DNA from: Asterias amurensis
Lineage: Eukaryota > Echinodermata > Asteroidea > Forcipulatida > Asteriidae
Direction: 5' to 3'
Length of the DNA: 64,000 bases
Assembly: GCF_032118995.1 (NCBI RefSeq)
Contig: NC_092654.1
Coordinates: forward strand, 12,594,284 to 12,658,283
Part shown: positions 985 to 64,000 of the stretch, in pieces
Numbering within the stretch: the stretch's first letter is position 1
Layout: each line of letters begins with the position of its first letter
Translations under genes and position numbers: made by a program
Notes under the pieces: generated by a model
Database searches by the model: none
What the model was told of the DNA's origin: nothing
Seen by the model: the letters and a program-made list of their open reading frames with translations, nothing else

Positions 985-1083
985 TTGACCTGGACTCGAA
1001 CCCTCACGCTGCTGTTTAGAAACACCAGAGATTGAGTCCAATCTGCTTAACCGCTTGGCCGCACACACTCCAGATCGCTCCAC
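985..1083 (-). repeat. tRNA-derived SINE remnant
   Basis: On the minus strand it reads GTGCGGCCAAGCGGTTAAGC (A-box-like) and, about 50 bases later, GAGGGTTCGAGTCCAGG (B-box-like), as in a Leu/Ser-type tRNA. It does not fold into a good acceptor stem and runs on into non-tRNA sequence, so it is read as a SINE head. A related SINE is at 35335-35421. Confidence 0.55.
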
Positions 1084-1128
1084 TCAAGATTTGTTGGTTT
1101 CTGAACTTTTTTATGTTTTCCTTTGTAG

Positions 1129-1368
1129 ATCCAGTGTTCGATGCAGCCCCATGTGTCGAAGAAGTAAACGTCCAACCAGATGCCAATAAGAATGTAGCCA
1201 GGGCATTCTGGATCTTCCCCACAGCTACAGATGAAAACGGTAACCCAGCTGCAGTGTCATGCGATCAGCCCAACGGAGGTATATTCAATGGAGGGATGAC
1301 AACTGTAACCTGCACTGCCACAGATTTGACTGACCAAACAGCTACATGTTCTTTTGATGTAAAAGTGT
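1129..1368 (+). CDS. HYR domain exon 1
   Basis: The exon follows TTTCCTTTGTAG and ends before GTAAGTAG; phase 1-1, 80 codons. It opens with DPVFDAAPC and carries the HYR signature AVSCDQPNGGIFNGGMTTVT followed by CTATD and a final CSFDVKVC. It belongs to the longer-loop type shared with the exons at 4253 and 7525. Confidence 0.88.
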
Positions 1369-7300: not shown

Positions 7301-10300
7301 ATGTTGTGGGTTCAAATCCCACCCGAGTAATATTCCTGTGATCTTTATTTTGTATTATTATTTTTTTATTTTTTTATTTTTTTTGGGGGGGGGGGGAGTA
7401 CTGAGTATAAAGTCCTTCCTCTCATCGGTGCAAACATATTTTATTTTATCCTTGATGCAAATTTAACATCTAATATGCCCACAGTACCTGACAGACTGAG
7501 TTGCTCTGTTTTGTTACTTTTCAGAACCAGTATTCAATGCACCGTGTGTTGGTCCAATCATCATTGATGTGTCACCAAATGACGGCAAAACTACAGCCTC
7601 TGGCTTTACCTGGGATAAGCCATCCGCAACTGGAGCCACTGTGAGCTGTGAGCCTGACCCTGACTCTGCAATATTTCAAGGGGGTGAAACCAGTGTGACG
7701 TGTGCAGCAACGAATGACATCACCCCAACACTCATTGAAACTTGTGAACTTACTGTTCGAGTCTGTAAGTTGGTGTTTTTTATGCTCCTTTCATGAACTC
7801 AGTTTTAAAGGAGACTTTTGAGACGCTGGCGGTAGCAGACGTAACAGTCCTTATTTGACCATGAGCCAAATTTTTCCCAGATTTGTTCTTATATGCCTAT
7901 GTTGGGATACAAGTGAGAATACTGGTCTTTGACAATTTAACATGGGTGTCATGTGTAGGCCTTGGCGATTAGTGAATTTAGTTCTCGACAAGTTGTACCT
8001 TAAATTGTCACGACTTCGACACTAGTTTTCAAAAGTTGGATTGTTTGACGCAGGTGCAACATAGCGAAATTCACACTGAAAAGATTGCAGGATTGGGTTA
8101 TACTGATGTCTGATTGTGTTTCGTAGGTAAATTATGTTGTCGTGAAAAGTCGAGTGCGACACAATTGGTTAACCAAGCAGGATCGCGACTAGTTTTGTAT
8201 GTAGTCGCGGGGGCACGATTAACCGCGTAGTTGAAAAACGGTAGTCGCGACTTGACTAAACAATTGCGGCTTCGACACGAGTCACACTAGTTGCCGATGG
8301 CTTACTCCAGTGCCTCTAAGCTATTGCATGGCTATAATTCTCTCAAATAAGATGCCTATTGCGTGTAGATAAAGAAGCGTATTCATTTGCATTTGTAATA
8401 TGGTCTGGTTCACATAGTTGTTTTGATTCGAATGAAGAATTGATTTTGCAATTGTAGCAATATTTTACTTAATTTTTTTTAATTTTTTTTCAAATTCCAT
8501 ATCAAATCAACATTTATTTCCATACAAACATATACAAATACAAACAATAAGATTTTGCCAAACTGAAAGTGTATGGAGGCATGACCCATTGAAGCAAAAG
8601 CTTGTGCGTTTGCATTCTGACTTATATTGACAACTTGCTCGACTGGAATACCAGTAGGTCTATAATAAACCCAGGAATAGGTCTAATACTTTGCAGGACA
8701 AAAAATTAGCGCTTTGATATGCCATTAGTGGTGTGATAAAGTGCTATCTTAGAACCTAGTGTTAGTATTATTATTATTATTATAAAATGCCTTTTCAATT
8801 CTGTCGTTACAGTTCCAGCCTTTGAAGACAACAAGTGTGTCAGTGACTTAATAAGGCAACAAGGTGTTGGTGGAATAAGTGCCAAAGTTGCCTGGCTTCT
8901 GCCTAAGGCCACACTCAAGAACGGGGATCCAGCAAGTGTGGCTTGCATTCCAGAATCTGGGAGTTCCTTCAGCAGTTTGGAAACAGACGTGGTCTGCACG
9001 GCTTCAGAAGCGCCTGATGTCGATGTGTCCACGTGTTCATTTAAAGTCAGCATTCGTAAGTGCAGCTTCGATTATAGATGAAATGCTTTACCATGTAATT
9101 TGGTGCTTTCTACACCCTTATTAAGTATGTAATTTGCTGTAAGCAGAACCATGAAGTTAGGCCCTGCCTAATCTGAAAAAGTCGGTGTAATGACCCTCTT
9201 ATTTAATGAGCACACGAAAAGGATGTATGTACTTTTCAAGTGTTTTTGGCCAAACTCCAAAATTCTTTAACCCTTTGGTTGATACCATAATTCTGGCAGC
9301 AGCAACTCAAGAAAAAAAACTCAACCAAAAACATGTAACATTAGACTTTGATAAACGTTCATAGCCTAAAAAAATACAGCATCCATATCTACGCCCTCAT
9401 TCAGTTCTTTAGAGTGATTGTTGAGCTTAAGGTGATGTTCTACTACACAGAGTGCTATTGAAAGTTTGGAGAAAAACACGGTTGAATTCCAAAAAAAATA
9501 AAAAATTATTTTGTTATATTAATCTGTGCAAGGGTTAAAATGTCAAGTCGTGAACTTTGCTGAATTCCACTTAAAATGTTTTCGATGAATAAGGAAATCG
9601 AGTCATATGATGATAAATAGGTTTCAATTGTGTAAAAAAACAATCATTTTGTATGCCCTTGTCCAGAGCTTATCTGCGAGATTTGCGAAAAGCCCCGTTA
9701 CGTAACCACTCTCAAAACGTCATAAGTAGATAAAGCCGCTTTGTTGCAGCGTGGATGTATAACAAAGCAAACTCCCACAAATGACGTCAGCGGCATTGTC
9801 CTTTGACGCCCGCTCTCAATGGCAGAAGTGTTTTTAGTTTTTCAAAAAAGCTTTAGGTAGGGGTAGGGGCCTGATTTTTAATCGATAATTGCGAAAAGTT
9901 CAGAAGTGTACACATATCAATTAAAATGGTGAACAAGTGCATTATAAACAAGTAAAAATACCATTTCTGTTGAAAATTCCGCTCAGGTAGGTGTTTAAAG
10001 GCACTGGACACTATTGGTAACTACTCAGAATAATTGCATTATACAAACCTAATTGGTATTTAAACAAACGATTTTTATTCATATTGGGATACACCAAGTG
10101 AGAGCACTGGTCTTTGACAGTTCATGTAGGCCTGGGTGATTAGTGAATTTACTACTTGACCAGTCGCCCCTCAAATTGACTTTGACACTAGTGGTCACTT
10201 ATTTTTAATTCCTAAGTTGCATTGCAACAAAGTGTTTACTGCAGGCGCAATATAGCAAAATTCACGCTGAAAGAATTGAAATTGTGTCACTGATGTCTGA

Positions 10301-13300
10301 TTGTGTTTCGTCAGTAATTTTTTTATTACCAATTTGCCTTCTATTTAATTTCAAATTTTAAATTTATGTAAAATTGTTGTAATTCAGCCTTTGTGCTGCA
10401 AGGAAAGTTTTTTTAATAAACCATTTTATCTATCTATCTATATCTATCTATCTATGTTGTCCATGCCTTTAATGGCTCTCTGTGTCTTTTACTAGATTCC
10501 TTGGCACCAAATTTTACTGATGGCTGTCCCAATGATGTCTCCATTGATGTCACCTCGACTGGCTCAAACATGGCTGCTCATATCTGGGACATGCCAGAGG
10601 CCACCAATGATTACACTCCTCAGGAACAAATCAAAGTGTTATGTGTTCCAGCCAATAACTCAACGTTCCTCTTCGGGGAAACGACAGTATTGTGTTTTGC
10701 CATTGATTCCAGGGGCAATACTGCATCTTGTGACTTCACTATTAGTGTTGAAGGTAAGTGGTGTAACAGGCTAATGCTAGCAGTCTGCCTATTCTGCCAG
10801 TACCTTTGTTTGGTGGGGTGCCTCTCTCGAGTTCACTTAGCTCTTCGCATGAGCAAACTATATGGCATTGAAAAAGGTCAACAAACTGTCATGATTATGC
10901 ATGAACATTGCTCTTCAAAATCCAATCAAGTAACAGTGTTGTAACCTATGCATATCATTTAGGATGATTAACACATACTTTTGAACTCTTTCATTTTTTA
11001 TCAATCACATAGAACCTTAAAAATACTAATGAGTTATAATTGGGTCTCAGAATTCATCACTGCAATAACCTATCTTTTTGGAAGTTTGTATATACTCAGC
11101 GCCTTGAGTACCTTGTTTGGTAGATACGTGCGCTATATAAGACTTCGATATTAGTTAGTGGTAATTTCATAATAAAAAAAACTGGTCCTAACTTGAGATA
11201 AAACTAGTCTTAACTCTTTGTGAAATCCACCCAGGGGAATCAATGTGTGGTGAAGAGAGCTTTTCAACTGGTGGTTTAGTCCCAACAAGGCTTGGTTCTG
11301 GATAATTTTACCGAGACAAAGTTGAGGTAATTTATAAAGAACCATGCCTCGGCGGGTTTAAACCGCTAGTTGAAAACCGATTCAACACACTTTGATTTCC
11401 ATTCATAAATACCTTTTCGGTCAAGAACATCATCACTTTTTGGTCAAAAAGTAAAATAAATGCACAAATTAATGACTGTTTCATTTGATTCTAGGCACAG
11501 TAGAGTGTACTCCTGAATGCAATGCCACCTCAATGTGCACACTAAGCAATAAAGGAGAGTCTGAGTGCATCTGCAACGAGGGATACACACTGAGTGACAA
11601 TCAATGTACAAGTAAGTTTCTTCATTCACATCTTGGGTGACTGCCTAGCCCCTGTGTTTTTTTATTATTTATTTTTTTTATTGCAAGTCGCCTGACACAC
11701 AAGGCCTGAAAGCCACTTCAAGGTGTGGGCTACAATTATTTTTTCCAGAGGCCGTTACCCCTTTTACAGTCCATACGAATGTAGGCTTGGGTATCATCAA
11801 TTAGAAGCCTGGCCAATAGAGCAGAAAGCACTACCTACCCAATTTAAAATGGTGAATCCGAGAGAGATATACTAATATCATAACAATTAAAAATAGATTT
11901 AGTTAAGTTTGCATCTTTTCTGTTCTGTAAAGCTGGCCTCAAGTCAACGTTGCATCAACAAAAAACAGTCGTGATACTGACTTTTCAGGATCACTTACTG
12001 AGCCTGAGCTAAGACCATCGGGAACTTTTACTGAGCATAAAGCCTGGTTCATACTTTATGCGAATGCGAAGCGAATTTGATGTGAATTTGACGTCACGAC
12101 CCTCCTTTCGCAGCGATATTTGCAAGTGAGTAGAGCAGAGTTCAACTGCTGCGAATTATTCATTGCGAATTTATGAAGTCAACGTTCGCTTCGCATTCGC
12201 ATGAAGTATGAACCGGGCGTAACTGAAACTGAAACAGCTGCCGCTCGAAAAAAATTAGCGGTCGCAAGAGTAGAACAATTTCAACTTGTATGACGTAATT
12301 CGGTCAGTCGGGAAACAATCGCAGGCGCACGATTACTCAGTATTTGTGACCTGAGCATATTTTGTCTGCGCGTTGCCGACGGTTTGTTGCGGGCATAAGA
12401 AAATCGTAGGTCGACCTGAGGCCAGCTTAAGGCATCCCTCCTCAAGCTTTGCTTTTGGGAATTTGCCCCCATATCCCTTTCTCTTCAAGTTCTTGTTTAT
12501 TTGATGGCCATTCTGTAAGCTCTTTTGTTAGTTTACTTAATGTAATTGTCTATTTCCTGTATGCACTTTGGTCTTTCTGTGATATGGAAATGAATGAATG
12601 AATGAAATGCATAACGTCACTTAAAGGAACGTTACAGAATTGGTAAGAAACAAAAACCGTGAAGATCACAGATTTACATAAAACTTGATGGTGATAGTAG
12701 AAAGCAGCCCTTGAAATATTTCTGTCTAAAATTTCATATTTGATGAGAAATAAATAATGTAACTTTACGTTTGGAGTTTATCGCTCAGTGAGGGTTTTAT
12801 TCATTTTTATTTTGGCATCAATGCAATGCAAAATTTGTGACGTGTTTCACTACTTTCTCGGGACCCAGATTGCCGATCGATCTCAAACTTCTACAGGTTT
12901 GTCAGTTTAGGTATTTGGTGGATTACATAAAGTGCTTACACTGCCGGCAACTGTTTTGTAAGCAAAAGCCGATTCTGTAAAGTTCCTTTTAAAATTTGTT
13001 TTGATTTTGTTTTTGTTTTGTCCACAGATAAAGATGAGTGTAAAGTTGACCAGCCATGTCATGCTATGGCAGACTGTCTGGACCTCGAACCACCTGAGAT
13101 GTTCAATTGCTCATGCAAGGAGGGGTACTTCGGTGATGGAATGTACTCTTGCAGTAAGATATTAGGATGTCTCAATGTTTGTGTTGTTTCAGGGAACTAT
13201 AAAGTTTCTTGAAATTAAAAGGCACTTGACATCATTGGTTATAATGTCAAAGACCATGCAGTATTCTCACTTTGTGTATCCCAACATGTGCATAAGATAA

Positions 13301-26073: not shown

Positions 26074-27045
26074 TTATGACGTTAAGTGTCGACTGTCATT
26101 ATCCGTTGCAATATCTGATAGGGATGGAACTCTATCTGTAATGACCCTCGTCCTTTGCACCAACTTTCTTCTCTTTCTTTCTTGGCGATCCGGCTGGTTT
26201 CCCGCCATTCCTCCCGTGGTGTCCCGTCCGCGCGAGAAGTCCGTCGACCGGGCTAGCAACGGTGACGATTTCGTTCGCGTTACGCTTCGACGAGAAACGG
26301 GTGCAGTTCCCATGAGTTCTTGTGTGTGGTCGTTATTCCGTATCCTCGGTAGGACAGTCAGTGATTTGGACATCGGGTGCTGCTGTTCCAGTTTGTCTCT
26401 GGCTTTGACGGCAAGTTTGTCCAGGCGGTGCACCCTGAGACAAGCAGTGCAGTAACGCTGTCCCACGACATCGCAGTAATGCCGGGCGTTCCCTTTGCAA
26501 GTTTGTTGCTGCTGTTGGCCGTCAACTTCCTTAAGCGAAGGCAGCGACATATGCATGCCAAACTTACGGGTTGCTTTGTTCGGAGCATTCCCTCCATAGT
26601 TGGGAAGAAACAAGCTAGTCCTGTCCCGATAGAAGTCGTCAATGTACTTGCGTTCGACCTTCGATTCGGGGTAGCGCAATGCGGGGTCCCGCCCGTCGGC
26701 ACCCGGGTCTACCATAATATCCAGCGTACGGTGAAAAGCATCTCCGTAGATCCCGTTCTTATCAAACCGATTCAGTTCCTCCTGGTTCCCAAATTTCTGC
26801 TCGTGTGACTTATGTTTGAGTTCTGGCGACTGCTCAGAACCAATCTCCAAAGCTTGGTTTTTCTGAAGACGCCGGGTCTCTCTTGGAACCGTCCACATTG
26901 GTTCTTTCTTACGAACGGGTTTCTTGTTACGCATGCGCGAGTTGCCGATGATTGTGAATTTTGAGCAGGGGATCTTCGGTAGAAACTCGGTGCTGACTTC
27001 AACTCCGTGGTCCATAACTGACTTAAAACCTTCACCAGTTTCCAT
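26074..27045 (-). CDS. Intronless basic protein of 323 residues, unrecognised
   Basis: A single open frame starts at METGEGFKSVMDHGVEV and ends DNDSRHLTS. It is clearly more GC-rich than its surroundings, which supports coding. The protein is rich in Lys/Arg, has no signal peptide or membrane helix, contains a short Gln run (GQQQQQTC, about residue 180) followed by a small Cys/His cluster (CKGNARHYCDVVGQRYCTAC), and has a Ser/Arg-rich carboxy end (RSVTRTKSSPLLARSTDF). The middle (YGDAFHRTLDIMV, FYRDRTSLFLPNYGG) looks ordered. I do not recognise the family; a nuclear or cytoskeletal role would be a guess. The first Met is preferred because a TATA-like box lies about 75 bases upstream. The antisense frames also look open over parts of the region but lack this composition. 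Confidence 0.6.
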   Translation of the reverse strand: METGEGFKSVMDHGVEVSTEFLPKIPCSKFTIIGNSRMRNKKPVRKKEPMWTVPRETRRLQKNQALEIGSEQSPELKHKSHEQKFGNQEELNRFDKNGIYGDAFHRTLDIMVDPGADGRDPALRYPESKVERKYIDDFYRDRTSLFLPNYGGNAPNKATRKFGMHMSLPSLKEVDGQQQQQTCKGNARHYCDVVGQRYCTACLRVHRLDKLAVKARDKLEQQHPMSKSLTVLPRIRNNDHTQELMGTAPVSRRSVTRTKSSPLLARSTDFSRGRDTTGGMAGNQPDRQERKRRKLVQRTRVITDRVPSLSDIATDNDSRHLTS

Positions 27046-27120
27046 TTTGCCCGCAGTGAACGTTTTCCCTTGAATAGCAGAGCGAAATGCCGCGTCACAT
27101 TGCTACTGAAAAATCATCAT

Positions 27121-34764: not shown

Positions 34765-37700
34765 GTAGGTAGGTGTTTGGAGAAGTTGAACAATGTACAT
34801 GTACGCCTCTATTTCCCGCCTTCGTGCATCACCAATCCACCTAAGCAGCATGCAGCATCAGAGTCCAGCTTTCTCCAGAAGACGATCAGAGCATACTGAT
34901 CGAAATGTCGAGTTGAAACCAACGGTTCTTTTCAGAACCACCCCAACTCATTAGAGATTACATGGTGTTACCGCAAACCTTTCTATATCGTATTTCCACC
35001 AAGCAAAGTTTCAAATCCTACTGATGTACATGTAGAGAGGCATAAATTTCATTATGGGTTGTTATGGGTTTTCATTTATGGTGCTTTGTCAAACCCCTAG
35101 GGGCATATCAAAGCGCTCGTTGTTTGTTTTCAAAGGAATGATCCGAGCTTAATTTGATTTCTGAGACCCATTGGTTTGACAAGCATCTAGAGCACATTTT
35201 GCAGCCACTGCCTGAAACACGGGGGCAAAGCTGGTGTACTATTGGTTTTTTTTACGTGCATTACACAATATATTGGGTTCTTTTATGTGCATTACACAGC
35301 ATAATAGACCTACGGCTTTGCATCTCATTCGGAGGATTGCTTAAAGACACAAGTGTCAAGACCAGCCCTGGACTCCACCCACACTCTGATGATTAGAAAC
35401 ACCACAGAGTGTGAGACCAGGGCCCAATTTCATGGCTCTGCTTACCGCCGAATTCTGTGCTTACGATCACGATTTCCCGCTTACGTGCAAGCGCAGAATT
35501 TCTGCGCTAGCCTTGTAAGCCTAGAATGCCTAATAACGGGGAGTACGCACGCGCAGAAGCCAAAATACGCCGCTAACACGTGAAATATGCTTGCTGTAAT
35601 CACAGAATTCCCTGCTTCCTAAGCGCCGATTCTGTGCTTACGGTAAGCAGAGCCATGAAATTGGGCCCAGTGCTCTTGGCCGACTGGCTGCTTGGCTAGT
35701 ATACTGTCCTGGGCCCAAATTCATAGAGTTGCTATAGTCACAAAAATTAGCTTAGCACGAAATTTCTTCCATTTATTGCATATTGCTTGTTACTGGTATT
35801 CAGCTGTTGTTTGCTTATCCTGAAAATCATGTGGAAATTTGGTTGGTAATCTTGTTTTTATCCAGGCAAAAAATTCATGCTAAGCAAATTTTTGTGCTTA
35901 GCAGCTCTATGAAATTGGGCCTAGCTTGAGGTGTATCTAACCAGCATTATACAACCAGCCAAACTTGATTTAAAAAAAACATGGGAGTCCGGAATTAGCT
36001 TTCAAAGCTCAGTGTAATATTTTAACCACACTGGTATGAAGTCAGTGCAAGTAAATACCTGTGTGGATACCTGCCCCTGTTCCATGGGCCTTGAGCTATC
36101 CTGGAACCTTCTCACCTTCTTTGGAGTATGCAGCACCAGTAGCCAAATTTTCGAAGCAATAATGGTTTTAGTGTCTTGTTTAAAGGAACACATTGCTTTG
36201 GATCGGTCGAGTTGGTCTTTGAAAAGCGTTTGTAACCGTTTGCTATAACATTCTCTGCTGATCAGTTCACTTCCACCCTTTCTTATTCTGTACAGGTATT
36301 GACATTGATGCTGGCGAGATTAAAAAGGCAAACGAGAAAAACACCTGCCCCAACATCATCTACAAGGTGGCAGACTTTGGGACCGATCTGGGTGACTGCA
36401 GTAAGGAATGGCAGAACAACTTTGATACCATTATGAGTGGCTTTACGCTGCACTTCATTGAAGACCAGCCGAAAGCTCTGAAGAACATGTACGACTGTCT
36501 GAAGCCAGGAGGGAAGTTGCACCTAACGTACATCGGGGACAAGCGTGGCTGGACGACTAAGGCAGAGGCTTATGTCAGGAACCATCCAAAATGGGGACCA
36601 CTTGTCAAGGTTTGTGTTGTTTAAAAGTAGGGTCAGTCCTTCACAATTTTCCAGTACCCCCCAAACCCCCCGCTGCCCTTGCAAATATATTCAGATGGAT
36701 GTAGTGCCCTTAAACAAAAAAGGAAAAGCAATGTCTCCCCCCCTCACTGAAAAGCAATACCCCCACTGGACACTATGGTAAATTTGGCACATGCCCCTGG
36801 CCCCATACATAACACAAAGTGTGCATATAATACATGTACAGCGTATGTACACATACTGTACATGTACGGTACACTCACTGTACATGTACGGTACACTCAC
36901 TGTACATGATTACTTTCTAAGTAGCGCCCTGATGGTTTTGTGTCTGCCAAAACTTGGGGCGGAGCTCATTATGCTATTGTTCACTAAAAAGCAACCTGTT
37001 CTCATTGGTTGCTGGTTGACCTATTCACTCTCGCTGCGATGTCAATCACAACGTTCTGCAAGCAATCGCACGTGCTCGTTGACGTAAACAAGCAAGTGGC
37101 TGTTGTAAAATATGGCAATGGCGCCGGGCGAGAGAGACATCTCTACTCGGTCCAGTAGGTTGTTTACTGTAAGTCGCTGGAAACCAATGGTGTATAATTT
37201 GCAACGGTACATCGTAGTCACAACTTTGCTATACTGTTCTCGCTGTACAATGTACTGTACATACAATGTATACGTTGTTAGTGTATGCACTGCGTGCAGA
37301 TCGCGAATCGTGCCGGGCCACGCCACACTACACTACGCCAACAGCCTTGAGTCAAGGCTACGTGTGGGTAGAAGCCTATGGTTTATTTATTTAAAAATGT
37401 TTTCGCAGCACACTGCTAAATTGCAACAGCATTCTCAATCATTAAAAAAATAACAATCGTTAAAGGCAGTGGACACTATTGGTAATCACTTAAAATAATT
37501 ATTAGCATAAAACCTTTCTTGGTGACGAGTAATGGGGAGAGGTTGATGGTATAAAACATCGTGAGAAACGGCTTCCTCTGAAGTGGCATAGTTTTTGAGA
37601 AAGAAATAATTTTCCTTGAATTTGATTTCGAGACCTCAGATTTAGAACTTGAGGTCTCGAAATCAACCATCTAAACGCACACAACTGCGTGTGACAAGGG

Positions 37701-51878: not shown

Positions 51879-52005
51879 CTAGTAACTCGCAGCACAGCTG
51901 CAGCAAGTTTCTATCGCAATCCACTCCCACTTGTAACCTCCTACGGTGTCGTCTTCAACGTAAGCAATCGTCCACGACGAACGGGATTTACACTCGGACG
52001 TTATT
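51879..52005 (-). CDS. Cystine-knot exon 2 (terminal)
   Basis: On the minus strand the acceptor is TCCCCGACCCACTACAG. In phase 2 it reads ITSECKSRSSWTIAYVEDD then TVGGYKWEWIAIETCCSC and AASY, stop TAG. The C-x29-C-C-x-C spacing with alternating beta-strand residues matches the last hairpin of neurotrophin and Spaetzle domains. Confidence 0.72.
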
Positions 52006-55000
52006 CTGTAGTGGGTCGGGGAGCAGAACAATGAAAAAGAACAGCAATTGGTGTGTTATTTAAACAAAATTAGCGTAAAGACTAGCAGCTTTGTCGTCTG
52101 AGGTTGAGTTTGACGCTATTTTGTATCGGGCAAGTCTCTTAAAGGCAGTGGACACTATTGGTAATTACTCAAAATAATTATCCTCATAAAACCTTCGCTC
52201 TCTGAAGTGACGTATAGTTTTCGAGAAAAAAGTAATTTTCAACGAATTTGATTTCGAGACCTCAAATTCTAAAATTGAGGTCTCGAAATCAAGCATCAGA
52301 AAGCACAAAGTGTTTTTTCTTTCATTATTATCTCGCAAGTTCTATGACCGATTGAGCTCAAATTTTCACAGGTTTGTTATTTTATGCAAATGTTGAGATA
52401 CACCAACTGTAATGACTAGTCTTTGACAATTACCAATAGTGTCCACTGTCTTTGAATGCACTGGACACCGTCCTTGCTGGGATATGTCAAAGACCAGTGT
52501 TCCCACTTGGTTGCAAAAAGTTGCAAAGAAAACAATGAGGTTTTTATTCTAACAATTATGTTGAATTATTACCAGTAGTGTACGGTGAAAATTACTTATA
52601 ATATTTGAATTGAATTCGAGACCTCAGCTGAGATCTAGAATTCAAACATCCTGAAAGCACACTTGTGCGACGAGGGTGTTTTTCTGCCATTATTCTCTCG
52701 CAACTTCGGCAACCAATTGAGTTCAAATTTTCACAGGTTTGCTATTTTATGCATAATATGTTGAGATACATCGAGTGAGAAGGCTGGTCTTTGGCATTCA
52801 CCAAAGGTGCCTTGCACTCTAAAACATTCAGAGTCAGAGTTTATCCAGATCCTGAGGGGTCTGGCCCATTTCTGGAATCTGAGTCATTATAACCTCAGAA
52901 AGAGATCAATCTTACACCAGAATACGAGTTAAAAACCCATGCTTTAATTACTTTCCGGGTCATTACTCGTTTTCAATTTATAAAGGGTGTATGAGAAGGT
53001 ATGTTTAATTTAGAAAAGCAGAATTATCTTGACAATACACCCCCATCCTCCCCTATGTCTAATCGAAACACTTCATCCCCGGGGTGCATGTTGCGCATGC
53101 CTGCCTGATAAGCGACCTTTCGAAACAATTTACCTCTATCAACAGCTTTATAGAAACAGTTTTGATTGACAATAAAAGTGAAATAGACTTGTAAAGAATA
53201 CAAATGCCGTTGCGTGGGTCTCATTTTCAAAAGATTTGGTAAACTGAGCATTGTTTTGTTTTTAAAAGATGCATCAACAAAAAATAATCTTCAGAAAATT
53301 TTGTTGGTAACTAATACAGCGTGCAGTGTTATTCAATTCAATTCAGTTCAACAACAACAAAATGTTTGAAAATTTAAAAACAACTTTTTAAAATAACAAC
53401 TTGGGCAACACTGCAAATAAAGACACTGGACACTATTGGAAATTGGTGTATCTCAACTTGGTGTATCTCAACATATGCATTAAATAACAAACCTGTGAAA
53501 CTTTGAGCTCAATTGGTCGTCGAATGTGCTAGATAATAATGAAAGAAAAAACACCCTTGTCACAGTAAGTTGTGTGCGATCAGATGCTTGATATCGAGAC
53601 CTTAAAATGCAATTCTGAGGTCTGGAAATCAAACTCGTGGAAAACTACATCACTTCAGAGGGAGCCGTTTCTCACAATGTTTTTTTACTACCAACCTCTC
53701 CCTTTTACTTGTTACCAAGTAAGGTTTTATGCTAATAATTATTTTGAGTAATTACAAAGAGTAATAGAGATACACCACTGCCTTTAAAGAAACAAGGGCA
53801 TGGGATCAACCAACCAAAATGATATTTTGCATTTTTGGTACACTTTTGAGTGACGTACCTGATTGACATGTGGTTGCACCTTTCTCCATTATTGCGACAC
53901 TTTGTGACATAAAAATGCTGGTCGGGATGGAGGTTGACGACCTGGTGAGTTCGTGTGATTCCTTGGACCTCCTCCTGCCAGCCACTATCGCTGGCGCATA
54001 TCTCAGTCAGGCGCCCACTGGCTGTTCTCTTCTCCTATACAGAGACAGACATAAGAAGAAAGGGAAGAATAAGAAACTAGACATTGAGAGTCTGTCTTGA
54101 CACAAACTTTAGCTGTTCTCTTCTCCTATACAGAGGTAATCATTAAAAGAAAAGAAGGGGAAGAAAAGAAACTAGACATTGAGAGTTTGTCTTGACAAAA
54201 ACTCTAGCTGTCCTCTTATTCATATTTTATGGAGGCTATCATTACAAGAAACGAAAGAGAAGAAAAATGAACTAGTAGTTGAGAGTTTGTCTTGACACAA
54301 ACTCTAGGTGCTCGTTAACAGCTGACGAAAATGTGTTTGCAAATTTAACACAGATTTAACACAGTAAATAATTTTAAATTTGATTGGGGTTTGCACCTCA
54401 ATGTTTGACTTCAATTCTTAACGTTTTGAAAACCTACAAACAGGGACAAATTTACGTTTGGCCCAGTAGTTCCCCCCCCATAATACACTTCAACTTCTGA
54501 GGTAAAAGGTTGCACAGGATGGAATCGATACTTTACTATCATCGTGTGATAACAAAGTAACTCGCATTTTGTCATCATTTTGTTGTACCACCGTCATGTT
54601 GTTGTGGTTGGTCCCGATTTGTAAGCTATTAGGGGAGAATAATTGCTCTGCTCTATTAAAGGCAGTGGACACTATTGGTAATTACTCAAAATAACTATCG
54701 GTGAGATACACCAAGACTGGATTGTGACAATTGCCAATAGTGTCCAGAGTCTTGAATGTAAAAGAGTGAAACATTCACTCTCTTGTCCGAGTGGTGTCAA
54801 TTTCGCGAATTGAGAGTGAAATTTAATCTATGTTTTTCACTCTCTTTATGTAAAAGAGTGAAAAAACACTCATTTTGGCCGCCATACCACTATTGGAAAG
54901 AGCCTCATAGCGGACAACTCTTTTTGAAAAACGGGTAGCCTACTTTCAACTTTTTGAGTGAAGGTCGTTCCAATTTCACTCAAAAAGAGTGACACGGGTT

Positions 55001-58000
55001 AACTTTCACTCTGAAAAGAGCGAACTGGCACCATACTCGGACAAGCGAGTGAAAGTTTCACTCTTTTACATTAAGGAGTAGAGCTCTGCTTGGAATCTCT
55101 ATACATTTTAAATCCACGATCTGGATTAATGGAAAATGATTCTGTTATGGAGCCTATACCCTTCATCAAGGGGATTTGATTTATCCGCAATTTCCGTAGC
55201 AATTTGTACTTCCTTGTTGGCGAGTGTTGTATTCACAGGGATTCAAACTGGGGGGGGGGGGCTCTCTCTAGTTCATGATTTCTCAACAGTAATTTCATCC
55301 GATCTTATTCCAGAAGATCTAGAGAAGAAAATAGGAAATTGCCAAGTTGACCTTTCTTCGCAAACACCATCACATTCATTTTGATAAAAGTATATTTTCG
55401 GCACGGTATGAACAGTGGCTCCCGAATCCCGCAAGATCTGCAAACTGGCCAGAATCTCTTGGGCAATCAGAAATCAAACCACCGTAAAACATGCAGATCG
55501 AAAACACCACAAATAAAAAAAAACAAAAAAAAAAACTGTAATCTGTGTATAGGCCGCTGTTCGGTTAAGACAGTCAAACCTTTGGGTTAACTCACATTTA
55601 TAGTTATAGTTATAAGCACGTTTTAATTTATTAGAAATGTTATGACAAAATATACTGTTTGTCAGACACTTATTATGAAGAGTTTTGTAGATTTTGCATT
55701 ATTTTGACCATGACATGAATCCCCCCTCGCTGTTAAAGGCAGTGTACACTATTAGTAATTGTCAAAGACTCACAGTTGGTATCTCAACATCAGCATAAAA
55801 TAACAAACCTGTGAAAATGTGAACTTAATCGGTCATCGAACTTGCAAGATAATAATGTAAGAAAAAACACCCTTGTCACACGAAGTTATGTGCGCTTAGA
55901 TGGTTGATTTCGAGACCTCAAGTTTAGCGAGACCTCAAGTTCTAAACTCGAGGTCTTTAAATCAAATTCGTGGAAAATTACTTCTTTCTCGAAAAACTAT
56001 GGCATTTCTGAGGGAGCCGTTTCTCACAATGTTTTGTACCATCAATCTCTCCCCATTACTCGTCACCAAGAAAGGTTTTATGCTAATAATTATTTTGAGT
56101 AATTACCAATAGTGTCCACTGCCTTTAATGAAGATTAATCGTATGATGTGGTTTAATCTATAGGTAGTTTCAAGCGTTAAATTATTGAGAGAGAAAAAAG
56201 GAATACCACAGAGCAATGCTTTCAGAAGAAGCGCGGTTTTGTGTGATTTTCTTTTACTCGTTTCTCAAAAACTAAATCACCTTTTCAGAAAGTCATATTT
56301 GAGGGAAGCTTGTTTCTACCATCATCATCTTTAAGCCGTGTAAGTTTAATGTAAATCTGTGGACTTTTGTGTCTTGTGTCGTACAAAAAGTAGCCAAATC
56401 CATTAACTGCCCATTGATTTGATGACAATCACTGTATCGAAAGAACAACAATATGATCTTTTCAAAAATTCACTTTAATTTTTTAAATAATATGGCGTTT
56501 CCGGTCAATTTCAGCGAACAATAAAGTCTTACTGACATTCAAAATCCACGAATGTTTTCCCCGAATTAATTCACAATTTTTCGCGTTATTTCAAAATCAA
56601 ATTCGTTTCGTATGCTTTCTTTCTTCCCAATACAGGTTCATTTCAATTCATTTAAAATTATTGTTTTTTCGTTCTCTTTTTTTCTTTTGCATTTTTTAGT
56701 GGAATACGAATGCCTACCTTCAGCTCCACTGAGTTTCTGCATTTCTATGTTTTCTTTCTTGTAGCCCTTTACCTATAGTGGCTTTTAGCCTCGTTTTGGG
56801 CGAATTGCATAAAAAAAAACTCACTAAATTTGTTTCTGTTGTTCTCTCTGTCCTCAGATTGCTTTGTTCTCCGGATCGCTTTGTTCTTGCTTTGTACAAG
56901 CCCGTGCTCGTCAGTAGATATTCACCGAGTGGATGACGGTGTGGATGACGTCATCGTCATCGATGGAATGGATTGTGAGTATTGTAACTGACAAATTGTG
57001 TTTGTTTGTTTTGTGTTTTTGTTTGTTTGTCTGTTGTTTGTTGTTTTGTTTGTATTCTTTTTAATTTTATTTTGTATTTATTTATAGACGATCTTTCGGT
57101 GAAGAAAACTTGGCAAAGCTCCAAACAGGGAATGTAAACACCAAGCTCGTAACGTTGGTTTATCTTCTGTTTGGTATTTTTAGACTACACACGATCGCGG
57201 GCGTCTTACAGATTCTCATTAACATCAACCTTCTTTGATATATTATTCGTGGAGTTTTGGGAGCATTATAAAATATTAGCTGTAAAAATCAAACAGGCGC
57301 GAACGGTAAACAAAAATGATAGATGTGGTGTTTATAAAGTTGCCTTTACACACACACAATTTGCACCTGTTTTGTTTGACCCCCGCATTGACGTCATAAT
57401 GTTTGATGAAAATAGATAGAAATTGCACAAATAAAGAATTTGTAACTCTGTAATTAGACGACAATACTTTTCTAGTCATCATGAAGTCAGCCTCGAACCC
57501 ACAACCGTGTGATTGCACTTCCTGCAGTCTAACCACTGGACCACGGTGACACAGTGTGCCCGATTTCATAAAGCTGCATAAAATTCTGCTAACCAAATAT
57601 TTTGTCTTAGCGAGAAATGACCGAAGTACCAGTATCAGCAAAAGTAACTGTATGGCATTCTGGCTGGTAATCTATTTTTTTTTTTTTTTTTTACTAAGAT
57701 ACAGTATGTTCGTGCTGAGCAAGTTTTTGTGCTACCAGACTTTAAAAAATTGGGCCAAGATGTTGAACGATGGAGGGATTTTTATTTGTTATTCTCACCC
57801 GATTGTCGGGGTAGTCTTCTGAACTTTCAGGCCAGTATTTGGCAAAGTCAGGTTTGGTCTTGCTGAAGGCTATCCGATTGTTGTTCAGTGCCGGATGTTT
57901 CAGGATCTCATCATAGAAGCCGGTGATCTTCTCATGTAAAATCTCCCCTTGTCTTTTGCTGAGCTCGATGTGGCCCTCCGACTGTATCTCGCCGATTAGC

Positions 58001-60817
58001 TTCACTGCAAGATCTGTCAAGAAATTAAAACTTCCTTTGTGTATAGCAGTTCTTCTATGGGGTTGCAGAGTGCATGTTAGGCGAGTAGGTTTTAAGCCAG
58101 TGCGAAGATGTTGAACCTGTATTACACAATTTATAAAACACACTAGCAGTTCTTCTATGGGGTTGCAGAGTGCATGTTAGGCGAGTAGGTTTTAAGCCAG
58201 TGCGAAGATGTTGAATCTGTATTACACAACTTATAAAACACACTGCAAGGGTTTTCGAAAGTGCTGATTTTGTTTACGTGCATATAACACGGCACACGGG
58301 ACCACCGGTATAACGTCTCAGACGAAGGGCGAAGCATTAATTAGTTAATCTTGCTGAATGATAAAGGGTAGCTCACCGATTCGTTTTCACGGCAAGATCT
58401 GTCATAAAATTAAAAATTGTATTTGTTTGTATAACATTCCATCTATAATGGGCGTTGCAGAATGCATGTTAAACGAATATGTTTTTCGGTATATATGGTA
58501 TATGTACTTTTCCTTAACAAAAAACACAATGTCCACAGATTTACATTAAATTTACACAGTTTGAAGATTATGATTGTAGAAATATTCCCTTGAAATTTTA
58601 CTTACGGAGGTGCTGTAGTTTTTGAGAAATGAGTAAAAGTAATAATTTTCGTCTCAGTTTCAGCATGTAAAATGTATTAACCAGTTGCGCTATGGTTTTG
58701 GTATTGGGAATTTTACATGCTAAAATAATTTTGGTCTCATGAGACCAAAACTACTTTGTGACTTGTTTTACTCATTTCTAAAAAAAATACATAACCTCAG
58801 TTAGTAATATTTGAAGGAAAGCTTTCCACTATCATTATCTTCAGACCCTGTAAGTTTAATGTCAATCTGTGGACATTTTGAAAAAGTATCCGAGTCCTTT
58901 AAAGAGTACAGCTCGTGGTTCTTTACCATTAACTAACTCAGGATAGGATAAATCCTAGCGGGGCTCACTTGGTGGTTCCCAACATATATGCATAAAATAA
59001 CAAACTTGTGAAAATTTGACTGAATTGGTCATCGAAGTTGCAAGTGAGTTGAAGAAAAACGCCTTAAATTCTTTTAATATTTGAGTGATAAATTGCCGGT
59101 TATAAAAAAACAGGCGTTTCCTTTCAGGTGCCAAAAAAGTTTCAGACCTGAAGTCTTTTAATTTTTGGAGTGAGAATAACCTTTCACTCAAAAACTAAGT
59201 TATTTCAGAGCGAGCTGTTTTTCACAATGTTTTCAACTATCATCATCTCTCCATTTGCTGGTACCAACACAGTCTCATGAGACCAAAATTATTCTGTGCC
59301 TTTTTTTACTTATTTCTCAAAAACTACACAACCTTAGTTTGTAATATTTGAAGGGAAGCTTTCCACTATCATTATCTTCAAACCCTGTAAATAAGTTTAA
59401 TGTAAATCTGTGGACATTTTGAAAAAGTACCCGAATCCTTTAAAGGCACTGAGGGACAAGTACTATTGGTTTAATTGCTCAAACTATAAGAATTATCATA
59501 AAGACGTACTTGGTAGAGAGCAATAGAGAGCTGCTGGTAGCATGGAACATTTTAAAGGGTGTTGGTTGGGGTTGGGTATTCTGCTTGGATTTGGCAATTA
59601 TGATATACTCACAGTGAAGTACAAGATGAAGCATTCCATTGTCGTGTATCGTTTTGGGAAATGAAGGCTTTCTGTCGGGCATTTCTTCGACTTCAAAACC
59701 ATAATCTGATTGACAAAAAATTACATGTTGTTAAATAAGTTATTTCTCTCAGTCGTAGTTAAAGATCAACTTGAACAAAATTTACACTGCTGTTAATTGG
59801 TTGTAAAAAAGTTAATGAGTGCGATGATTAATGATTACATACACATTGAGTTAAACTCAATAATCGTGCCATAAGGTGATTTGTTGTTGGTTGAGCAGTG
59901 ATACACTATAACTTGCCAAAGACGCCGATTTTCATGAAAAGCCCTTAAGCGCATAGGAAACAGCACTGTGGCGTCATACAGTGGACTGGATAAGCATTAT
60001 GACTGCAATGGATTAGTGGCGACACTCTGAAGTAAGGACGTTCGAACTCCTTCCGTGGTCCTTTCTCTGTGTCATTTCGCTATGTCCTCACACAATCGTG
60101 TTTTTCAACTATTTTTTAGTGAATGGCATGGAGAATAAAAATTAGCATAGCAAGCACTGAGTTAGTTCACAGATAAGCATAAAACAATGAAGACAGGCAA
60201 TCAAACCAATGCAGATCAATAGCAAAATAAAGGATTAGGTATTGAACAAATACAAATTGACTAGAGCGGGATTTGAACCAACAACCTCCGGTTGGTTGAA
60301 ACTGCTCTTTCTAAAAAGGAGTCATAATTAAGTTTCTCCTATACAAAAATGGTTATAACTAGCATGATTTGGGATAGAACAACGAGAAATTTACTATTTG
60401 AACCAACAACATCCGGTTTAACTTGCCGACGCTCTACCACAAGTTAACTAATGTTAGTTTCTTCTGTGGTTTATAACTTGCAATTTTTTTTTTTTTTTTA
60501 AGACACTCACACTAAAGTCTCTTGGCATTCAAATCGTTATTCAAATATTACATTTCCCACTAGTGTGGCATTGCACTTGAAAGCAATCAGGATAAGGATC
60601 AGCATAATTACCAGTTTCCCGGGATTTACATCGTTCCCAATCAAAATATAATCCAATTTTGTAATTCCGTGGAGGTAGAAATATCGTTTTTGACTTTTGA
60701 TGAGATACTGTAAAATAAAATATATATATATATACATGTATATATATAATATATATTTGCATTTATACATACCTTCGTACAAATCCATCGGTTGACTGAC
60801 AAAATGTTCTGTTGCAT
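51879..60817 (-). CDS. Spaetzle/neurotrophin-like cystine-knot pro-cytokine (5' end missing)
   Basis: Six minus-strand exons (60773-60817, 60612-60707, 59613-59705, 57799-58013, 53859-54034, 51879-52005) join in consistent phase, giving about 250 residues with a stop at the end. The first four encode a prodomain with one cysteine (FDWERCKSRET) and no domain I recognise. The exon join then creates DNR-EKR, an R-x-K-R proprotein convertase site, followed by a mature domain of 97 residues with seven cysteines: EIC, TKC, ERC, SEC, then CCSC near the carboxy end. Spacing, the QHFYVTKC strand and the final WEWIAIETCCSC fit the cystine-knot growth factors. The seventh cysteine in a CCxC tail points to Spaetzle, the Toll ligand of arthropods; the overall layout also fits neurotrophins, which echinoderms have. 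Secretion is inferred; the signal-peptide exon must lie above 60817 and was not found. Confidence 0.72.
52140..52455. mobile_element. TTAA-type MITE in the cytokine intron, internally deleted
   Basis: TTAAAGGCAGTGGACACTAT ... ATAGTGTCCACTGTCTTTGA, missing part of the left arm. A second partial copy follows at 52456-52820. Confidence 0.68.
53418..53790. mobile_element. TTAA-type MITE in the cytokine intron
   Basis: It ends 69 bp from the cystine-knot exon (53859). It carries a short duplication of CTCAACTTGGTGTAT near the left end. Confidence 0.68.
53859..54034 (-). CDS. Cystine-knot exon 1 with cleavage site
   Basis: On the minus strand a long pyrimidine tract leads to TGTCTGTCTCTGTATAG; the donor is CAATCAG|GTACGT. 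Phase 0 to 2, 58 codons: EKRTASGRLTEICASDSGW, VQGITRTHQVVNLHPDQHF and YVTKCRNNGERCNHMSI. It holds cysteines 1-3 of the knot. The plus-strand frame over the same bases is a shadow. Confidence 0.78.
54013..54310. repeat. Three degenerate tandem copies covering a splice acceptor
   Basis: Units of about 90 bp (TTCTCTTCTCCTATACAGAG ... AACTAGACATTGAGAGT ... TTGTCTTGACACAAACT) run from inside the cytokine exon into its upstream intron. The second unit keeps the acceptor and the first bases of the exon. Confidence 0.7.
54655..54756. mobile_element. TTAA-type MITE, about 100-bp deletion derivative
   Basis: Both ends (TTAAAGGCAGTGGACACTAT and AATAGTGTCCAGAGTCTT) are present but almost the whole interior is gone. 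Confidence 0.65.
54757..55072. mobile_element. Foldback with many AAAGAGTGAAA motifs
   Basis: The ends TGTAAAAGAGTGAAACATTC and GAAAGTTTCACTCTTTTACA are complementary, and CTCTTGTCCGAGTGG pairs with TCGGACAAGCGAG. The motif AGAGTGAAA or TTTCACTCT occurs about ten times inside. Confidence 0.7.
55735..56126. mobile_element. TTAA-type MITE
   Basis: TTAAAGGCAGTGTACACTAT ... ATAGTGTCCACTGCCTTTAA; the centre has a small duplication (GAGACCTCAAGTTTAGC twice in part). Confidence 0.75.
56230..56400. mobile_element. Partial GTCCACAGATTTACAT-family MITE
   Basis: One arm (CTCGTTTCTCAAAAACTAAA ... AATGTAAATCTGTGGAC). Confidence 0.55.
56858..56974 (+). CDS. Possible plus-strand exon with a hydrophobic stretch (weak)
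   Basis: A very good acceptor (GTTCTCTCTGTCCTCAG) and donor (GATT|GTGAGT) enclose 117 bases open only in phase 1-1: CFVLRIALFLLCTSPCSSVD then DDGVDDVIVIDGMD. It resembles the end of a signal peptide plus the start of a secreted chain. It lies inside an intron of the minus-strand cytokine gene, and no partner exon was found. Confidence 0.35.
57483..57560 (-). repeat. tRNA-like fragment
   Basis: The minus strand has CCGTGGTCCAGTGGTTAGAC and, 40 bases on, GTGGGTTCGAGGCTGAC (A- and B-box-like). The acceptor stem does not close; a SINE head or tRNA pseudogene. Confidence 0.45.
57799..58013 (-). CDS. Cytokine prodomain exon
   Basis: On the minus strand the acceptor is TTTAATTTCTTGACAG and the donor is CGG|GTGAGA; phase 1 to 0, 71 full codons. 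Protein: LAVKLIGEIQSEGHIELSKR, GEILHEKITGFYDEILKHP, ALNNNRIAFSKTKPDFAKYW and PESSEDYPDNR. It is mostly helical in character and charged. The final Arg becomes P4 of the cleavage site in the next exon. Confidence 0.75.
58045..58244. repeat. Exact 100-bp tandem duplication
   Basis: Copies 58045-58144 and 58145-58244 differ at only a few positions (for example TTGAACCTG versus TTGAATCTG). The duplication starts 31 bp upstream of the cytokine exon acceptor. Confidence 0.85.
58496..58905. mobile_element. GTCCACAGATTTACAT-family MITE with altered centre
   Basis: The arms are intact; the centre contains CGCTATGGTTTTGGTATTGG, shared with the copies in the right-edge tandem array. Confidence 0.72.
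59613..59705 (-). CDS. Cytokine prodomain exon
   Basis: The acceptor on the minus strand is TTTTTTGTCAATCAG and the donor is CACT|GTGAGT; phase 1-1, 31 codons. Protein: YGFEVEEMPDRKPSFPKT and IHDNGMLHLVLH. The short length and 1-1 phase match the neighbouring prodomain exons. Confidence 0.68.
60260..60460 (-). repeat. tRNA-like fragments
   Basis: The minus strand has GGTTCAAATCCCGCTCTAG (60260-60280) and, separately, GTGGTAGAGCGTCGGC (60427-60442) with GTTGGTTCAAAT nearby. Probably two SINE remnants in an intron. Confidence 0.4.
60612..60707 (-). CDS. Cytokine prodomain exon
   Basis: The acceptor on the minus strand is TATTTTATTTTACAG and the donor ACTG|GTAATT (weak); phase 1-1, 32 codons. 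Protein: SHQKSKTIFLPPRNYKIGLY and FDWERCKSRET. The other frames close or do not match the phase of the flanking exons. Confidence 0.62.
60717..60760. repeat. TA microsatellite
   Basis: TATATATATATACATGTATA and adjoining TA steps in the cytokine intron. Confidence 0.8.
60773..60817 (-). CDS. Cytokine prodomain mini-exon
   Basis: A 45-nt exon, phase 1-1, between GTTTTTGTTTTTATCAG and GAAG|GTATGT on the minus strand. It encodes ATEHFVSQPMDLYE. Both splice sites are good. The exon carrying the start and signal peptide should lie at higher coordinates or outside the window. Confidence 0.6.
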
Positions 60818-61978: not shown

Positions 61979-64000
61979 TTAACCACTGTTCATTTTTTAC
62001 ATCAATTATGAAACCCCAAGAGGAAAGCTATCAATAATGCCCATTAAATATAGAGGATGCTTTTTCGGTTACAGGAATAAAAAAAGAGCCTGCCGCAAAA
62101 TCTCATCAACTATAGTTTGAAAGACAAACATCACCTGCTATCCACCAACGCACCATGCATTTAAATACCACATCAAAATTTAAAAGTATAGAAAGAAATG
62201 TTTCTGAAAGCCCGAAAAACCTTTAAATAAATATTGGTTATTTATTTCTATCTATACAGCAATTGGCATTTTAAAGTACTATAATGTGGGATTATTATAA
62301 TCGCTTAAGAATTAGCGAAGAGGAATTTTGATGAGAAACCTCAAGGCTATCATATTATTGTAAAACTAATCCTTTGATACCGTTTATGTTTTGTTATCAA
62401 TGTTGAAGCAACTCACTCCCATGTGATTAACCCCTTCGCTATTCCCCAGCGCATTGTATGCTGTAGACTGGCCGCTGGAGACGAGCGAAAAATTACACCC
62501 ACCCTCCTCCCCCTTCCCCACTTACTCAATGACTCAATAGTGGAAAGCTTCCCTTCAAATATTACTAACTGAGGTTGTGTATTTTTTGAGATATGAGTAA
62601 AACAAGTCACAAAGTAGTTTTGGTCTCGTGAGACCAAAATTATTTTAGCATGTAAAATCCCCTTAACCAGTTATGATATTATACCAAAACCATAGCATAA
62701 CTGGTTAATACGTTTTTACATGCTAAAACTGAGACGACAATTATTACTTTTACTCATTTTTCAAAAACTACAGCACTCAGTAAGTAAATTTTCAAGGGAA
62801 GCTTTCTACTATCATAATCTTCAAACTGTGAAAGTTTAGTGTAAATCTGTGAACATTGTGTTTTTTGTTAAGAAAAAGTACATATACCCTTTAACCATTG
62901 TTCATTTTTTACATCAATTATGAAACCCCAAGAGGAAAGCTATCAATAATGCCTATTAAATATAGAGGATGCTTTTTCGGTTACAGGAATAAAAAAAGAG
63001 CCTGCCGCAAAATCTCATCAACTATAGTTTGAAAGACAAACATCATTTGCTATCCACCAACGCACCATGCATTTAAATACCACATCATAATTTAAAAGTA
63101 TAGAAAGAAATGTTTCTGAAAGCCCGAAAAACCTTTAAATAAATATTGGTTATTTATTTCTATCTATACAGCAATTGGCATTTTAAAGTACTATAATGTG
63201 GGATTATTATAATCGCTTAAGAATTAGCGAAGAGGAATTTTGATGAGAAACCTCAAGGCTATCATATTATTGTAAAACTAATCCTTTGATACCGTTTATG
63301 TTTTGTTATCAATGGGAGTGTGTTGAAGTAACACACTCCCATGTGATTAACCCCTTCGCTATTCCCCAGCGCATTGTATGCTGTAGACTGGCCGCTGGAG
63401 ACGAGCGAAAAATTATACCCACCCTCCTCCCCCTTCCCCACTTACTCAATGACTCAATAGTGGAAAGCTTCCCTTCAAATATTACTAACTGAGGTTGTGT
63501 ATTTTTTGAGATATGAGTAAAACAAGTCACAAAGTAGTTTTGGTCTCATGAGACCAAAATTATTTTAGCATGTAAAATCCCCTTAACCAGTTATGATATT
63601 ATACCAAAACCATAGCATAACTGGTTAATACGTTTTTACATGCTAAAACTGAGACGACAATTATTACTTTTACTCATTTCTCAAAAACTACAGCACCTCA
63701 GTAAGTAAAATTTCAAGAGAAGCTTTCTACTATCATAATCTTCAAACTGTGAAAGTTTATTGTAAATCTGTGGACATTGTGTTTTTTGTTAAGAAAAAGT
63801 ACATATACCCTTTAACCATTGTTCATTTTTTACATCAATTATGAAACCCCAAGAGGAAAGCTATCAATAATGCCTATTAAATATAGAGGATGCTTTTTCG
63901 GTTACAGGAATAAAAAAAGAGCCTGCCGCAAAATCTCATCAACTATAGTTTGAAAGACAAACATCATTTGCTATCCACCAACGCACCATGCATTTAAATA
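61979..64000. repeat. Tandem array, unit about 915 bp, running off the right edge
   Basis: The block GTTCATTTTTTACATCAATT recurs 912 and then 921 bases later. The units are nearly identical, and each contains a GTCCACAGATTTACAT-family MITE (62515-62890 and 63455-63810). The second unit has a 9-bp longer version of the CAACTCACTCCCATGTG region. The third unit is cut by the window end. No open frame of interest. Confidence 0.8.

Follow-up and report, generated by a model that had tools for sequence, protein, structure and literature searches.

Neurotrophins with a Spaetzle-like cysteine in deuterostomes

Neurotrophins that carry an additional, Spaetzle-like cysteine have been described in the sea urchin and the acorn worm, and they are the closest described systems to the sea-star gene analyzed here: copy a, on the minus strand of a 64,000-nucleotide stretch of the Asterias amurensis genome (hereafter the window). 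The sea urchin has a canonical NT, whose precursor is encoded in one exon, and NT2, whose precursor extends over several exons (Wilson 2009, PMC2772990; this and the other published work cited is represented here by excerpts). Sea-urchin NT2 and acorn-worm NTb share an added cysteine beside the fifth, recalling some Spaetzles (PMC2772990); both were placed in the neurotrophin family, and a covalent dimer was inferred for Sp-NT2 (Wilson 2009, PMC2772990). The NT2 group lies nearer protostome neurotrophins in that study, and SpNT2 grouped with acorn-worm NTs, again nearer protostome neurotrophins, in a later one (Lauri 2016, PMC4812194). Sequences of p75NTR are cited from both the sea urchin and the acorn worm (Wilson 2009, PMC2772990), and the same paper states that no deuterostome had yielded a Spaetzle gene by the time of its publication. 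Among the Spaetzles, Spz1 is cleaved by a trypsin-like enzyme, and Spz2 and Spz5 are cut by furin (PMC9427763).

Copy a is, as judged from its sequence, a real sea-star gene, predicted to code for a secreted protein that resembles nerve growth factor and carries an extra cysteine of the sort seen in insect Toll ligands. Its assignment to the NT2 kind, by the published description, is well supported, which makes it a new sea-star member of that kind and one of four such copies. The others are its tandem paralogue (copy b) and two copies elsewhere on the same contig (copy c, C7:3122793-3123125; copy d, C7:3134600-3136560). What is new here is the set of sea-star copies, together with a complete gene model backed by conservation. 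The combined neurotrophin/Spaetzle pattern, which the first-pass annotation of the window had taken for a novelty in a deuterostome, is not: that claim is superseded because Wilson 2009 (PMC2772990) described the pattern in sea-urchin NT2 and also reported the extra cysteine for an acorn-worm NT.

Gene structure and precursor of copy a

The complete model of copy a comprises six exons and encodes a 247-residue precursor consisting of a signal peptide, a prodomain, the convertase motif REKR and a mature domain of 97 residues, with seven cysteines and a CCxC tail. The last five exons lie within the window, running from 60817 to 51879 (-) in a single continuous reading frame; each has an AG acceptor, the four that need one have a GT donor, and a TAG stop closes the last. 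The REKR motif spans the 57799/54034 exon join. Signal peptide, prodomain and convertase site were called by hydropathy, conservation and motif, without a trained predictor, and the three together reproduce the anatomy of the neurotrophin family. The exons are as follows (window coordinates except for exon 1; identities are to the corresponding exon of copy b):

Exon 1: C7:12675069-12675156, minus-strand gene; signal peptide; 16.8 kb past the window end, which makes the first intron 20 kb long
Exon 2: 60773..60817 (-); opens the prodomain, (D)ATEHFVSQPMDLYE; bordered by AG and GT, in phase 1 at either end
Exon 3: 59613..59705 (-); prodomain, YGFEVEEMPDRKPSFPKTIHDNGMLHLVLH; 71% identity (31 residues), same phase
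Exon 4: 57799..58013 (-); prodomain, ending ...YPDNR before the convertase site; 44% identity (64 residues), same phase
Exon 5: 53859..54034 (-); EKR (54026-54034), then the first mature half from 54025, with knot cysteines I-III; 53% identity (55 residues)
Exon 6: 51879..52005 (-); second mature half, holding knot cysteines IV-VI and, as the first C of TCCSCA, the extra cysteine (codon 51903-51905); closed by the TAG stop; 59% identity (44 residues)

The tandem paralogue supports this model. Copy b (C7:12683164-12692877) lies on the same strand, starts 8 kb beyond exon 1 of copy a and encodes 248 residues; all six exons of the copy a model are matched, with identical phases, and 124 of 243 aligned residues are identical. 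The short exon 2 has a counterpart equal in length and phase, and their peptide alignment is better than 5000 of 5000 shuffles. When the two loci were compared by blastn, the matches on known exons paired like with like (exons 1, 3, 4, 5 and 6); those outside exons, mostly recurring at several places, are taken as dispersed repeats. Over 243 codons, differences between the two copies fall at codon positions 1, 2 and 3 in the numbers 75, 65 and 155. By the NG86 method, nonsynonymous divergence (dN) is 0.41 and synonymous divergence (dS) is saturated at 3.9 for the whole precursor; the signal-plus-prodomain part gives a dN of 0.38 and a dS of 1.50, and the mature part gives no dS value. The gene model is supported because the paralogue matches it exon by exon and phase by phase, under constraint, and this conservation indicates that the model is beyond chance. 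The convertase site of copy b is KEKR, under the furin rule a weaker site than REKR.

To locate the first exon, the upstream DNA was scanned for hydrophobic, phase-1 exons that begin with ATG and have a good donor. The scan yielded one candidate in the 28.0 kb that precede copy a and three in the 29.3 kb that precede copy b, where two of the three are a single exon read from two different ATGs. The top candidates of the two copies pair with each other (MSFCTELTLERLTLYTTVSLLLLCSICRT and MRLCGDLTVVRLSMVTMVTLLVLCICGT), with the phase and the donor CGG|GTGAGT common to both. The score of their peptide alignment was reached by 0 of 5000 shuffles, and their DNA is 76% identical over 55 bases (blastn E 4.9e-4).

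The first-pass annotation had proposed six in-phase minus-strand exons within the window. Five of these hold, by their borders, their frame and the paralogue. The remaining one, segment 60612-60707 (-), keeps the frame open and in phase, yet nothing in copy b corresponds to it. A scan of the 28,251 bases of copy a introns for in-phase segments, open for 45-150 bases and flanked by a GTR donor and a pyrimidine-rich AG acceptor, yielded 38, this one included; it is treated as unsupported for both of these reasons. Three of the 38 have a GTRAG donor, and 60612-60707 is not among them. It may be an alternative exon of copy a. The rest of the proposed anatomy was borne out: the prodomain, the convertase site and the 97-residue seven-cysteine domain could be read in the spliced frame, with REKR and the CCxC tail in place; the product is by its anatomy a secreted pro-cytokine with a domain of the neurotrophin/Spaetzle superfamily; and the host, judged a probable echinoderm, is Asterias amurensis. 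On contig 23 of this genome (16,427 bases), COX1 reads FSTNHKDIG when translated with the echinoderm mitochondrial code and FSTKHKDIG with the invertebrate one.

A second candidate, mini-exon 58377-58398 (-), was rejected, its inclusion giving an in-frame stop; it duplicates the beginning of exon 4 in truncated form and has both an AG and a GT.

Two repeats adjoin the exons. A 100-base direct repeat (58044-58244) stands immediately upstream of exon 4, with the truncated exon-4 start further upstream. A 95-base tandem repeat in three copies (54021-54307) covers the exon-5 acceptor and the first bases of that exon, and its upstream copies form decoy exon-5 acceptors 95 bases off, which is not a multiple of three.

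Exon 5 alone has no match in Pfam at E 10, and exon 6 alone reaches an E value of 3.4e-4 against Pfam NGF (21.1 bits, below the cut-off); joined, the two exceed that cut-off. The prodomain, in a query that still included 60612-60707, matched no Pfam family at E 10. Rfam found nothing in the window at gathering scores.

Cysteine pattern

The six knot cysteines can be aligned in fold order in all four copies, and each copy has the extra cysteine beside knot cysteine V, in the tail TCCSCA, as the Spaetzle family does. The numbers of residues between successive cysteines are:

Copy a: 32/6/10/28/0/1
Copy b: 32/6/10/27/0/1
Copy c: 32/6/12/28/0/1
Copy d: 32/6/14/28/0/1
Fly Spaetzle: 36/6/13/29/0/1
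Mosquito Spaetzle (eight cysteines): 36/8/2/5/28/0/1
Four neurotrophins: 42-43/9-16/11/27-28/1

The seven cysteines of copy a and their tail bear out the Spaetzle arrangement noted in the first-pass annotation. In Spaetzle the central dimer bond is formed by Cys-94 in the mosquito and is kept in the fly (PMC9427763); counted on chain 7b1b, this residue is the first C of CCKC. A covalent dimer is inferred for copy a because of this bond and because Wilson 2009 drew a like inference for Sp-NT2.

How the likeness to Spaetzle came about bears on the origin of the pattern only. The extra cysteine and the short loops could have arisen independently in echinoderm and hemichordate neurotrophins, with the likeness to Spaetzle a convergence; this account is compatible with an NT2-type gene, and we hold it at somewhat below an even chance. 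The residues that distinguish the families read as neurotrophin, and one added cysteine at the interface of a two-fold dimer would be easily gained, which suits convergence. However, the extra cysteine and the six-residue spacing between cysteines II and III both agree with fly Spaetzle (the mosquito protein has eight), and the NT2 group is placed nearer protostome neurotrophins in the excerpts of both phylogenetic studies (Wilson 2009, PMC2772990; Lauri 2016, PMC4812194).

Placement in the neurotrophin family

Profiles and diagnostic sites favor reading copy a as a neurotrophin and not as a Spaetzle. At the Pfam cut-offs of 27 bits for both NGF and Spaetzle, the mature domain of copy a lies above the first (28.3 bits; precursor 27.9) and below the second (24.0 bits; precursor 21.1), so that the Pfam check suggested for the mature domain came out positive for one family and negative for the other. 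As controls, solved NT-3 scored 168.9 bits on NGF and 22.4 on Spaetzle, and fly Spaetzle scored 107.5 on Spaetzle and nothing on NGF. The 24.0 bits of copy a appear to hold little Spaetzle-specific signal because solved NT-3 reaches 22.4. NGF and Spaetzle scores were 32.4 and 15.5 bits for copy c; copy d gave 29.3 and 19.3 bits in one scoring and 27.7 and 21.1 in another. Replacing the extra cysteine by alanine in silico raised the NGF score from 28.3 to 31.5 bits in copy a and from 20.2 to 23.3 in copy b, and lowered the Spaetzle score from 24.0 to 22.3 and from 21.3 to 19.2, respectively; the extra cysteine therefore moves the NGF/Spaetzle balance by about 5 bits. When Pfam Spaetzle was run over the whole genome, exon by exon, at E 1, there was no match, and the controls were equally without a match, so this run has no bearing on whether a Spaetzle gene is absent.

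Comparisons of profiles and whole domains point the same way. A profile of copies a-d matched four neurotrophins at E 6e-14 (2.2e-11 when only the three from vertebrates are taken) and two Spaetzles at E 9.5e-4, and the neurotrophins matched the Spaetzles at 0.016; the four copies are therefore somewhat closer to Spaetzle than other neurotrophins are, yet far closer to neurotrophins. A profile of copy a, copy c and the canonical sea-star gene, whose inclusion biases it towards neurotrophins, found 18 neurotrophin chains, with E values from 1.2e-17 to 7.6e-14, and two mosquito Spaetzle chains at 0.26-0.27. Against solved structures, the first match of the copy c domain was an NGF-type chain (E 4.1e-6), and the copy a domain found no Spaetzle at E 10. 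Pairwise identity of copy a is 26-28% to the four neurotrophins and 13-21% to the two Spaetzles; for copies a-d together the ranges are 25-35% and 13-21%. In a tree of 10 sequences the two Spaetzles separate from the other eight at 100/99. Apart from its cysteines, the fold had been called equally like both families, which overstates the Spaetzle side given these identities and the profile E values of 6e-14 and 9.5e-4.

The diagnostic sites given in the excerpts of Wilson 2009 (PMC2772990), read by eye from aligned strings, agree with this placement: Trp130, Ile133 and Gln44 are present and Pro13 is absent in all four copies. The Spaetzle combination of Pro13, an aromatic residue at 133 and no Trp130 occurs in none of the four, and the mosquito Spaetzle compared here likewise lacks an aromatic residue at 133.

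Several results weigh against the neurotrophin placement. Copy b falls under both Pfam cut-offs in a near tie (NGF and Spaetzle 17.2 and 18.3 bits for the precursor, 20.2 and 21.3 for the mature domain). For the copy a domain alone, the best match among solved structures is NT-3 at just E 0.0018. Six of the seven inner branches of the tree are weak, with a long-branch warning for fly Spaetzle and the canonical gene, and copies a-d form one clade in 48% of bootstrap trees. The I-II and II-III loops of the four copies are shorter than in the neurotrophins compared. Read by eye, copy a (RCNHMSIRITSEC) departs from the vertebrate signature [GSRE]-C-[KRL]-G-[LIVT]-[DE]-x(3)-[YW]-x-S-x-C, which is a vertebrate consensus quoted by Wilson and not defining for invertebrates, the canonical sea-star gene itself departing from it at two places.

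These points bear on the possibility that copy a is a true Spaetzle orthologue, retained by a deuterostome, and serves a sea-star Toll as its ligand. Such an orthologue would account for the seven cysteines with CCxC, the II-III spacing of six that fly Spaetzle shares, the slightly higher score of copy b on Spaetzle than on NGF, and the presence in the genome of a Toll of multiple-cysteine-cluster layout (L044, below). It is nonetheless very unlikely: copy a stays under the Pfam Spaetzle cut-off at a level near that of solved NT-3, identity to the two Spaetzles is low and these stand apart in the tree, and Trp130 and Ile133 are present and Pro13 absent in every copy.

Family members in the genome

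Two protein searches and one Pfam search together recognized at least five neurotrophin-family genes, all on contig C7; this is a lower bound, as the genome searches score the best candidates and further members with split exons are possible. The Pfam NGF search (E <= 0.001) returned two places, the canonical gene at C7:14709762 (87.2 bits) and copy c (29.7 bits). With the copy a precursor as query (60612-60707 included), 13 places were found at E <= 10: four exons of copy a and segment 60612-60707, four exons of copy b, a single place in copy c and another in copy d, the canonical gene (at E 0.137 only) and, on contig C22, a place with three stops that is not significant (E 0.183). The copy c domain returned seven: copies c and d, one exon of copy a, two exons of copy b and two insignificant, stop-containing places on contigs C17 and C2.

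The canonical sea-star gene has six cysteines, with prodomain and mature domain in one open frame of 299 residues and REKR before the domain; its cysteine tail reads TSCNCA, against TCCSCA in copies a-d. The seven-cysteine copies form two pairs on contig C7 (a/b and c/d). Their mature domain is unsplit in copy c, where it occupies one exon, split between cysteines I and II in copy d, and split between III and IV in copies a and b; the position of the intron in the mature domain varies within the sea-star family. The exon structure is complete for copies a and b only. A 5' exon scan gave two overlapping weak signal-peptide candidates upstream of copy c, and the scan between copies c and d gave no candidate.

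Proposed action and receptors

Copy a is probably an NT2-type multi-exon neurotrophin gene, whose secreted precursor would be cut by a convertase to give a covalent-dimer growth or survival factor acting via Trk and/or p75NTR. The product would most likely be a secreted precursor from which the signal peptide is removed, and a furin-type convertase would cut after REKR. The 97-residue domain would fold as a neurotrophin cystine knot; in NGF the knot cysteines pair I-IV, II-V and III-VI. Two such domains may pair into a dimer held, in the manner of Spaetzle, by a disulphide that joins their extra cysteines beside knot cysteine V. The role of this dimer would be that of a growth or survival factor acting locally, with Trk and/or p75NTR its most likely receptors.

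Toll-like receptors were surveyed through a TIR search of the genome, which gave 21 matches, of which six were read. One of them, L044 (C18:4553408), carries an LRRCT-type cluster midway along its ectodomain; a CxC cluster comes next, and another LRRCT-like stretch precedes the membrane. Its LRRCT matches are weak and below cut-offs. Among solved chains, those closest to L044 in sequence are TLR3 and other leucine-rich-repeat proteins, and insect Tolls rank below them. The multiple-cysteine-cluster class is the class of insect Toll, and, by its domain order, at least one Toll of this layout appears to be present in the genome. Nothing was found in this survey that links copy a to L044 or to other Toll-like receptors, or that argues against such a link. 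The TIR matches include two arrays of frames: an array of seven on contig C15 (3406509-3460459), and two very similar ones on contig C1 (22631578-22641587), the second having its ectodomain and TIR in separate open frames.

It is conceivable, at long odds, that the seven-cysteine neurotrophins keep a state that predates the split of the two families, forming covalent dimers able to bind Toll as well as Trk/p75-type receptors, and that the sea star uses at least one copy as a Toll ligand. A sea-star copy would then be an endogenous protein ligand of a deuterostome Toll. That copy a is a decayed or unexpressed copy is hardly credible: the truncated exon-4 duplicate and the 95-base repeat over the exon-5 acceptor do record local rearrangement, but the gene has a full open frame, canonical splice sites, a signal peptide and constraint between the tandem copies.

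Other features of the window

Beside the NT2-type gene, the window contains the following features:

About 1000-13200 (+): HYR domains in three of 10 open frames scanned (one under the cut-off), and an EGF domain in one
26077-27102 (-): open frame of 342 residues, the longest stop-to-stop frame of the window, with no Pfam match at E 0.01
36262-36621 (+): methyltransferase-domain frame (Pfam Methyltransf_11, E 2.8e-11)
About 61980-64000: units of about 0.9 kb in tandem, with the same 45-residue frame at 61983, 62895 and 63816

Comparison with known systems

No report of a sea-star NT2 was found in the open-licence literature among the matches listed, and the echinoderm genome papers examined do not contain the word neurotrophin. 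Of the systems described, Sp-NT2 of Strongylocentrotus purpuratus, compared here by its published description, is among the most similar: it shares the split precursor, the extra cysteine, the membership of the neurotrophin family and the inferred covalent dimer. Against Wilson's description, copy a shows both features of the NT2 type, the extra cysteine and a precursor over several exons. Pro136 of Sp-NT2 recurs only in copy d, copies a, b and c having Glu, His and Lys, and the excerpts of Wilson 2009 do not give it as defining. Acorn-worm NTb resembles the sea-star copies in its extra cysteine beside knot cysteine V and in its placement by tree in the neurotrophin family.

The canonical neurotrophins (NGF, NT-3, NT-4 and the sea-star canonical gene) share knot cysteines I-VI, Trp130, Ile/Val133 and Gln44 with the copies, but have six cysteines and longer I-II (42-43) and II-III (9-16) stretches. 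Spaetzle (Drosophila C-106, Aedes Spz1C) shares the CCxC tail with its intermolecular cysteine and, in the fly, the II-III spacing of six; it differs in lacking Trp130, in having Pro13 and Pro136, and in its identity of only 13-21% to the copies. The four seven-cysteine copies beside one canonical neurotrophin in one animal offer a testable set for receptor use, Toll included. In overall layout the sea star mirrors the sea urchin, with one canonical one-frame neurotrophin and exon-split seven-cysteine genes, and differs from the Sp-NT2 case in having four such copies, in two pairs on one contig.

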